41,224 nucleotides of DNA from Lentisphaerota bacterium (GTDB lineage Bacteria; Verrucomicrobiota; Kiritimatiellia; Kiritimatiellales; Pontiellaceae), in the NCBI GenBank assembly GCA_012729265.1, contig JAAYDL010000347.1, forward strand, positions 1 to 41,224, read 5' to 3'. Positions 20,821 to 30,954 of the stretch are shown in pieces. The notes beneath the pieces were generated by a model. The model worked only from the letters and a program-made list of their open reading frames with translations, searched no databases and was not told the DNA's origin. Made by a program: the position numbers and the translations under genes. How positions within the stretch are numbered: the first letter of the stretch is position 1; the number at the start of each line of letters is the position of its first letter.

Positions 20821-22698
20821 TTAGCCGTCTTGTTGCGTCTTTTCTGCGAGAATCCGTTCCTGCCGGTCGCGCAGGATTTCTTTGTTGGTCCAGATGCCGT
20901 ACGGATCGCGGTAGGGGAGTCTGCGGGTGGTTTCTTTGATCATTTTTAGTTCGTGGTCGGGTAGGGGGATTTCAATGTCCTGCGGGCGCATGGCGGCCAG
21001 GGTGCCGCCGCGCTGTCGACCGACGGGTTTGGTTTCGCCGACGTAGAAGCCGGCCTCGATGAGTCCGGAGCGCACGGGGATGGCGGCGCAATAGGTCAGC
21101 AGGAGCGCGTCGGGTTTCATGAGTCGTCGGAGTTTTTTGAAAAAGTCGACGGTCCATAGTTCGCTGTTGCGCTGCGTGGAAAAGGCGTCGAGGAAGACGA
21201 GGTCGAAGTGCTGATTCGGGAGTTTTGTGGCGGTGTAACGCGCGTCGCCCCAGCGGATGATTGCCGATTGTTGATTGCCGATTGATGATTTCCCGTACAG
21301 ATAGAGCTCCGTGAGTGTTTTGCGCCAGTTGAAGGTGTCGGACGGGGAGGGCTGGAGGCTTTGTGCTGCGGCACCGACGACGCGGCGATCCATTTCCAGT
21401 GCAGTGATTTCCAGTTTTGATTTTCCAGTCGCAAGATTCAGGGCGGCTAAGCTGTTGTAGCCCAGCCCGAAGCAGACATCTAAAAGGCGGACGTTTCCGT
21501 GTTCCAGACGGTCGCTCAGTTTGCCCGGAACAATATATTTTTCCTCCGCCTCAAGGCGCGCGCCGGCGGGCGTGTGATAATGCTCTTTGTAGTCCTCGTT
21601 CCAGAAGGTGGTTGAGCCGTCCTCTGTTTCGACAGTTTTCAAACGGCCCGTTTCCGGTTTCAAGTTTCCAGTTTCAAGTTTCAAGTTTCCAGTTTCAAGT
21701 TTCAAGTTTCCAGTTTCCAGTTTCCGATAGAGATCGCCTTGGTGCCATTCGCGGCAGATCATCTGCTGGATGACATAGTCTTTGAACTGACCTTTTGCCA
21801 TGTGCCACCTCGGAGCGATGAGCTCGTCGTCGAGCGTGTCGGTGGTGAGCCGCATGATCGGAATAATCGGCGGCATACGGCGGATAAAGTCCATGAGGTG
21901 CTCGGCATAATCGTGCTCCATAAACAGGGGGAGATTCTTTTCACCACCCGCTCCGCTTGAGGGCACAGAGGATTGGAGTTTTTGTCTCTGGGTCTCCGCG
22001 TCTCTGTGGTGAAGTTCGGAATACTGTTTTGCGAGGGCAGTGCCTTTTTCGATGTGCAGATTATGAACCTTTACCGCGTCGATCGGCAGTGCGGCCAGTG
22101 CGTCGGCGGTGGCTTGAAAATCTTCTGCGGTTTCGCCGGGCAGGCCGAGGATGACGTGTACAGCGACTTTGATTCCGTGCTCATGCAGTCGTCTAATGGC
22201 CTGTTCGCTCGCGGCCCAGTTGTGGCCGCGGTTAATGCGCTGGAGCGTGCGGTCGTTGCAGGTCTGTACGCCCAGCTCCACCCAGGTTTCGATGCGTTCG
22301 TTGAGTTGGGTCAGGAAGTCGTACGCCTGCGGCGTCAGACAGTCGGGGCGGGTTCCAATACTGACGGCGGAAAAATCAAACAGGTTGAGCAGTTCGAGAT
22401 AGAGCGGTTGCTGTTCAGGGCCAAAGGTCGCGGAGAACGCCTGAATGTAGGCCATGAACTTTTTGGCGCCATAGCGCTCGCGCGCAAACTGAATGGCCGC
22501 ACGAACCTGCTCCTGCACCGTTTCCGCGCCCAACGTCTGCACCGCCGCAGCACCGCGTGCGTTGCAGAAAGTGCAGCCGCCCGAGCCGTCGGACTCGCGA
22601 TTCGGGCAGCCCAACCCAAAATCGATCGGTACGCGGAACAGCGCCTGACCGTGGCGTTTAATCAGGTAATCTTTATATTGGAGATAGGGCTTGTTCAT
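20821..22698 (-). CDS. Radical SAM (YhcC/YtqA type) fused to MnmD/MnmC-type tRNA methyltransferase
   Basis: 625 aa with two domains. Residues 1-325: TIGR01212-type radical SAM, Cys31, Cys42 and Cys45 as the cluster ligands (CPNRESDGSGGCTFC), then SIGTRPDC, ELGVQTCND and HVILGLPGET. Residues 355-600: DUF752-type methyltransferase (EHYHTPAGA, motif I LLDVCFGLGYNS, FLDAFS, PVGRQRGGTLA), the class that makes mnm5s2U in tRNA from the aminomethyl intermediate. YtqA-type radical SAM proteins are reported to act just before such a methyltransferase in Gram-positives. The fusion may do both steps, as MnmC does elsewhere. Three word repeats are inserted in frame: 229-254, 326-354 at the domain junction, 471-480. 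Start at 22698 follows homology; ribosome site weak. Confidence 0.85.
   Translation of the reverse strand: MNKPYLQYKDYLIKRHGQALFRVPIDFGLGCPNRESDGSGGCTFCNARGAAAVQTLGAETVQEQVRAAIQFARERYGAKKFMAYIQAFSATFGPEQQPLYLELLNLFDFSAVSIGTRPDCLTPQAYDFLTQLNERIETWVELGVQTCNDRTLQRINRGHNWAASEQAIRRLHEHGIKVAVHVILGLPGETAEDFQATADALAALPIDAVKVHNLHIEKGTALAKQYSELHHRDAETQRQKLQSSVPSSGAGGEKNLPLFMEHDYAEHLMDFIRRMPPIIPIMRLTTDTLDDELIAPRWHMAKGQFKDYVIQQMICREWHQGDLYRKLETGNLKLETGNLKLETGNLKPETGRLKTVETEDGSTTFWNEDYKEHYHTPAGARLEAEEKYIVPGKLSDRLEHGNVRLLDVCFGLGYNSLAALNLATGKSKLEITALEMDRRVVGAAAQSLQPSPSDTFNWRKTLTELYLYGKSSIGNQQSAIIRWGDARYTATKLPNQHFDLVFLDAFSTQRNSELWTVDFFKKLRRLMKPDALLLTYCAAIPVRSGLIEAGFYVGETKPVGRQRGGTLAAMRPQDIEIPLPDHELKMIKETTRRLPYRDPYGIWTNKEILRDRQERILAEKTQQDG
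21257..21290. repeat. GATTGCCGATT-word repeat inside a gene
   Basis: GATTGCCGATTGTT then GATTGCCGATTGAT, two to three near copies of a 12-14-bp word, read as SSIGNQQSAI within the methyltransferase domain. The frame is kept open. Confidence 0.7.
21651..21726. repeat. TTTCCAGTTTCAAG-word repeat at a domain junction
   Basis: About five near copies of a 21-bp unit built from TTTCAAG and TTTCCAG words (encoding LETGNLK on the minus strand). They form the linker between the radical SAM and methyltransferase domains. Confidence 0.9.
21979..22012. repeat. GTCTCTG/GTCTCCGC-word repeat inside a gene
   Basis: TTGTCTCTGGGTCTCCGC and following TCTCTGTGGTGA form a degenerate 8-9-bp word repeat, read on the minus strand as ELHHRDAETQRQK within the radical SAM domain. 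Confidence 0.75.
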
Positions 22699-30824: not shown

Positions 30825-30837
30825 GGTTTTGATTCGT

Positions 30838-30900
30838 GATACGTAATACGTAATATGTAATGCGTGACTCGTAATACGCAATACGCAATACGTAATACTT
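30838..30900. repeat. CGTAATA/CGCAATA-word tandem repeat
   Basis: About eight degenerate copies of an 8-10-bp word (ACGTAATACGTAAT, ACGCAATACGCAAT) just upstream of the SNF2 start. Same word family as the inverted repeats around the TA cassette at 3824 and 5062. Confidence 0.9.
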
Positions 30901-30954
30901 AACATATATTTTTTAGCTTATTGAGGGAAATGTGGCGGTCATGTCTCAAGTTGT

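Follow-up and report, generated by a model that had tools for sequence, protein, structure and literature searches.

A radical-SAM protein fused to an MnmC2-type methyltransferase as a predicted FAD-free counterpart of MnmC in Kiritimatiellales and Lentisphaeria

We analyzed a stretch of 41,224 nucleotides (contig JAAYDL010000347.1 of assembly GCA_012729265.1, here called the window) from a Pontiella-like member of the Kiritimatiellota, whose genome is assembled into 385 contigs. The minus strand of the window carries a gene in which a radical-SAM domain and a DUF752/MnmC2-type methyltransferase domain share one reading frame. The features of this gene are as follows.

20821..22698, minus strand: fused TIGR01212 radical-SAM and DUF752/MnmC2 methyltransferase gene, 625 aa, identified by profile matches and by the same architecture in relatives
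21724..22698, minus strand: radical-SAM half with its C-terminal subdomain, residues 1-325 (TIGR01212; Radical_SAM and Radical_SAM_C; AlphaFold fold matching Elp3)
22564..22608, minus strand: codons of Cys31, Cys42 and Cys45, presumed [4Fe-4S] ligands, CPNRESDGSGGCTFC (alignments A1 and A2)
21931..22017, minus strand: in-frame insert, residues 228-256, LHHRDAETQRQKLQSSVPSSGAGGEK..., missing in most relatives and of low model confidence, including residues 249-252
21650..21725, minus strand: interdomain linker consisting of a 7/21-bp tandem repeat, KLETGNLKLETGNLKLETGNLKPETG, of low model confidence, including residues 344-346
20899..21636, minus strand: DUF752/MnmC2-type methyltransferase half, residues 355-600 (profile, sequence and structure matches)
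21460..21474, minus strand: SAM-binding loop CFGLG, residues 409-413, aligned to GFGTG (66-70) of E. coli MnmC
21394..21396, minus strand: Glu435, equivalent by alignment to Glu101 of E. coli MnmC, at least 90% conserved in A2
21187..21189, minus strand: Asp504 (in FLDAF), equivalent by alignment to Asp178 of E. coli MnmC, at least 90% conserved in A2

The length of 625 residues is counted from the ATG at 22698. The frame is open upstream to 23025 and contains several further start codons; these are disfavored, as similarity to the relatives begins only at the ATG at 22698. The initial annotation had proposed that a radical-SAM protein is joined here to a DUF752-type methyltransferase, and profile searches bore this out within the single ORF. 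The N-terminal half matched NCBIfam TIGR01212 ('MnmL/YtqA') over residues 5-228 and a second stretch (E 3e-70, 236.7 bits, cut-off 180), and Pfam Radical_SAM and Radical_SAM_C (residues 256-313) both scored above their cut-offs. Pfam Methyltransf_30 (DUF752) matched residues 479-570 with 87.1 bits (cut-off 22). The MnmC2 model NF033855 aligned with residues 367-565 (E 2.7e-29) at 102.5 bits, below its strict equivalog cut-off of 136, which is also missed by the fusions sampled in the phylum. Profile searches of the fused protein detected no FAD-dependent MnmC1 domain (TIGR03197), and a Pfam search detected no GNAT domain. The flanking genes, judged by eye, are unrelated: a uvrC-like gene is convergent with the fusion gene, and a typA-like gene lies further away.

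An error in sequencing or assembly might have merged two adjacent genes, a concern raised by the fragmented assembly and by the repeat DNA at the joint, but we consider the probability of this to be negligible. The same fused frame occurs in genomes of the same order and of another family, including the single-contig genomes G024 and G032 and named Pontiella isolates. Comparison between relatives gave a dN/dS of ∼0.06-0.15 in both halves, each of which is thus under purifying selection. Since relatives carry the same two-domain ORF under such low dN/dS, the ORF is neither a chance frame nor a misassembly, and the fusion is real.

We then examined the integrity of each half. The cysteines of the C...CxxC motif (Cys31, Cys42 and Cys45) are invariant in alignments of 45 fusion proteins, all 45 of which match TIGR01212 with E-values of 1e-10 or lower. 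The sister family f2 has a shorter first cysteine spacer (CPHGRCAFC), with the three cysteines retained. In E. coli MnmC, Glu101 and Asp178 have been reported to be critical (PMC3648344); by alignment these residues correspond to Glu435 and Asp504 of the fusion, and the Gly66-Gly70 loop corresponds to CFGLG at 409-413. AlphaFold modeled the fusion as two confident domains (mean pLDDT 89, pTM 0.89); the two inserted stretches were the least confident parts of the model. Aquifex MnmC2 was the closest match of the methyltransferase half both in sequence (phmmer 2.4e-28, profile 1.3e-55) and in structure (Foldseek 3.7e-20, TM 0.74 on the target), and MnmC was also matched. For the radical-SAM half, Elp3 was the nearest fold by Foldseek on the AlphaFold model.

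The gene also contains repetitive DNA. Tandem repeats based on a 7-bp unit (period 7/14/21/35) were seen in the window at 21650-21725, 21256-21290 and 30830-30902; two of them sit in the fusion gene, in the linker and in a methyltransferase loop, and the third lies at the start of an SNF2-like gene. Relatives have other sequences at both sites in the fusion gene, and the repeats look like repeat DNA tolerated within protein loops. The site of the insert in the radical-SAM half (HHRDAETQRQK... type) is filled with a different sequence in the relatives L003 and L021, as if an interspersed repeat had entered the gene.

The initial annotation had also predicted that the genome would contain MnmE and MnmG and would lack MnmC. 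MnmE (on contig C366), MnmG (C81) and MnmA (C347) were all found in the source genome, no MnmC FAD domain scored above cut-off, and a full MnmC, which had been named as the observation that would count against the proposal, did not turn up. A search of the same genome for MnmM found none, and the DUF752 domain of the fusion is the only one detected there, with no second copy. Among 58 relatives, TIGR03197 had no match above cut-off in any genome. MnmG had no match in five of the 58, including two fusion carriers, G004 and G025, whose completeness exceeds 90%; this lack of a match, which speaks against the predicted pathway, may be due to fragmentation.

The distribution of the fusion was followed at two levels. 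Among the 58 relatives, the same two-domain ORF (∼565-709 aa) was present in nearly every genome of the same genus, in almost all of the same order, and in one genome from another family of the class. A scan of named genomes located it in Pontiellaceae/Kiritimatiellales, including Pontiella sulfatireligans F21 (L087), and also in Lentisphaeria/Victivallales. For phylum-wide counts we used 388 genomes drawn evenly from the phylum. A TIGR01212 protein scored above cut-off in 94 of them, and one fragment brought the carriers to 95; in 75 of these 95 an MnmC2-type domain lies in the same frame. The fusion is not a single oddity but the standard architecture at the phylum level, kept in most TIGR01212-bearing Kiritimatiellales and Lentisphaeria. 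Stand-alone TIGR01212 proteins make up the other 20, seven with a separate DUF752 gene, five with MnmM, and eight with none of the known methyltransferases of the pathway. MnmM was present in 61 and full MnmC in 5 of the 388 genomes, never together with the fusion. The mutual exclusion is clustered by clade, so that the events are not independent and the Fisher p of 6e-7 overstates it. These counts show different ways of covering one pair of steps rather than additions to one another. Since eight genomes have TIGR01212 without a known methyltransferase, the link between the steps is not a strict one.

Stand-alone forms also fall inside the fused radical-SAM clade (L046, L051/L113, L053/L055/L120/L121 and L124-L128), and the join has therefore been lost, or made, on more than one occasion. 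Contig ends truncate a further three stand-alone forms (L021, L107 and L129). Two outlying fusions were seen on contigs filed as Gemmatimonadetes (L084, RFFQ01000113.1) and Candidatus Termititenax (L091, DYQY01000010.1), which reflect either transfer or mis-binning; L084 falls inside the Pontiella clade.

A different arrangement was seen in other families of the phylum, where a DUF752-type methyltransferase is joined to the C-terminus of the queuosine-inserting Tgt (L133-L138, from G180, G146, G142, G327, G132 and G309); L133, for example, matched Pfam TGT with 476 bits and Methyltransf_30 with 51 bits. About 15 further genomes have DUF752 matches in ∼690-aa frames. One possible role of the Tgt-fused methyltransferase is to methylate preQ1 on its aminomethyl group at position 34; alternatively, it could be an MnmD tied to another wobble-base enzyme. 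A loss of QueA with methyl-preQ1 as the end product was rejected, as the carriers that were tested do have QueA.

Phylogenetic analysis of TIGR01212, with L139-L146 and L039-L049 included, resolved several deep clades, namely Bacilli MnmL, YhcC, a Bacteroidota/Verrucomicrobiota type, and the fused clade. The radical-SAM domains of the fusions group in this distinct clade, separate from that of the Bacilli. AU tests in which whole groups were placed together with the fused clade gave p 0.09 for the Bacilli-type group and p 0.16 for the YhcC group, so that the position of the clade, by tree or by test, is not firm. The fusion had been assigned to the same group as YtqA, and this is correct for the family TIGR01212; within it, the fused clade could lie nearer to either Bacilli MnmL or YhcC. 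E. coli YhcC belongs to TIGR01212 although E. coli has MnmC, and a literature search for YhcC with tRNA found nothing. Given these several deep clades, the NCBIfam equivalog name MnmL/YtqA may be too broad for all of TIGR01212. In Anoxybacillus and Enterococcus, the TIGR01212 gene directly precedes a class I SAM methyltransferase gene.

The partner of YtqA in Gram-positive bacteria is MnmM (YtqB), a methyltransferase of family PF06962. The precedent invoked for the fusion was the replacement of MnmC by YtqA with a separate methyltransferase. Because the MnmM family differs from DUF752, the joining of a radical-SAM protein of the Gram-positive route to a methyltransferase of the E. coli/Aquifex route is, as far as could be checked, a new pairing.

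The families matched by the two halves are those named for exactly the two steps carried out by MnmC, and a 2025 review places MnmL beside MnmC for nm5s2U (PMC12548931). Because MnmE, MnmG and MnmA are present, the MnmC FAD domain, MnmM and a second DUF752 are absent, and the fusion never occurs with MnmM or full MnmC, we predict that the fusion converts cmnm5(s2)U34 to nm5 and then mnm5. It thus probably corresponds to MnmC, with both activities in one protein but without FAD. In this pathway, cmnm5 would be placed on tRNA U34 by MnmE/MnmG and the s2 group by MnmA. The radical-SAM half at the N-terminus would then cleave SAM with a [4Fe-4S] cluster on Cys31/42/45, and the 5'-deoxyadenosyl radical would attack the carboxymethyl arm, the loss of which would yield nm5(s2)U34; in detail, this could proceed by hydrogen abstraction at the glycine-derived CH2 followed by oxidation and hydrolysis. 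With a second SAM, the C-terminal MnmC2-type half would transfer a methyl group to the amine, giving mnm5(s2)U34. The analysis shows the joined gene, its conservation, the retained catalytic residues, the predicted folds and which pathway genes the genomes have or lack. We infer both reactions and their order within one protein; for the reactions, the grounds are the families to which the halves belong and the lack of any other known enzyme for these steps. The radical-SAM half is the main source of doubt, given YhcC in TIGR01212 and the separate clade of the fused domains.

The methyltransferase half could instead be the only part of the protein in the mnm5 pathway, acting on nm5U that MnmEG produces directly from ammonium; the radical-SAM half would then carry out some other reaction on U34 or tRNA, as YhcC may. 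This is unlikely, though it deserves consideration. The membership of YhcC, from an MnmC-bearing organism, in TIGR01212 is in its favor, as are the tree, which ties the fused clade no more to MnmL than to YhcC, and the sampled genomes in which the domains occur apart, eight with TIGR01212 in the absence of MnmM or DUF752 and others with DUF752 in the absence of TIGR01212. Ammonium is reported to be usable by MnmEG (PMC3936742), a route by which nm5U could reach the methyltransferase half directly. However, the fusion to MnmC2 is stable over two large clades, split pairs occur in the same genomes, and the carriers of the fusion have no other known enzyme that removes cmnm5. Even less probable, in our judgment, is that the wobble base is the target of each half but the product is a different one, such as another methylated xm5U or an Elp3-like one. 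The distinct clade and the resemblance of the radical-SAM half to Elp3 would suit such a product, but the protein lacks an Elp3-type GNAT domain, the MnmC2 residues are kept, and MnmE and MnmG are in the genome.

The bifunctional reading can also be put in a broader form. A separate TIGR01212 clade, distinct from MnmL and YhcC, would have evolved with MnmC2 into one enzyme with two active sites, which would use two SAM molecules differently (radical cleavage and methyl transfer) on one tRNA base and hand nm5U from one site to the other. MnmC would then have been invented independently and without a flavin, as a standard feature of Kiritimatiellales and Lentisphaeria; we hold the chances for and against this fuller account to be evenly balanced. 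Both halves and the route are already known, and what is new, as far as could be checked, is that they are paired within a single protein whose radical-SAM domain belongs to a distinct clade. Jaroch et al. 2024, the MnmL paper, reportedly mentions 'the occurrence of fusion proteins' in its abstract, and the fusion may already be listed there. To our knowledge, the chemistry of the YtqA/MnmL step has yet to be settled. Finding a radical-SAM protein of this family naturally fused to the methyltransferase that would act next is strong guilt by association, and offers one protein in which both steps and the hand-over between them can be examined. The pathway appears to have been rebuilt without the flavin oxidase, and at least four arrangements occur in one phylum: the fusion, split halves, MnmL with MnmM, and MnmC.

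Comparison with known systems places the fusion between several enzymes. The bifunctional MnmC of E. coli (MnmC2-MnmC1) follows the same two-step logic and has a homologous MnmC2 methyltransferase half. In the fusion, however, the first step is assigned to an N-terminal radical-SAM/[4Fe-4S] half and not to a C-terminal FAD oxidase half, and the domain order is reversed; judged from its domains, the protein would work like MnmC and yet not be a member of MnmC, as it has no TIGR03197 domain. With MnmL (YtqA) and MnmM (YtqB) of Bacillus and its relatives the fusion has the radical-SAM family TIGR01212 in common, whereas there the two proteins are encoded by adjacent separate genes, MnmM is of PF06962 and not DUF752, and the fused radical-SAM clade stands apart from the Bacilli one. 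Stand-alone MnmC2/MnmD (the Aquifex DUF752 protein, PDB 3vyw) is the closest solved structure to the methyltransferase half and, unlike the fusion, has no radical-SAM domain. Elp3, finally, shares the radical-SAM fold and acts on C5 of tRNA U34, but it builds cm5U rather than trimming cmnm5U, and carries a GNAT domain that is absent from the fusion.
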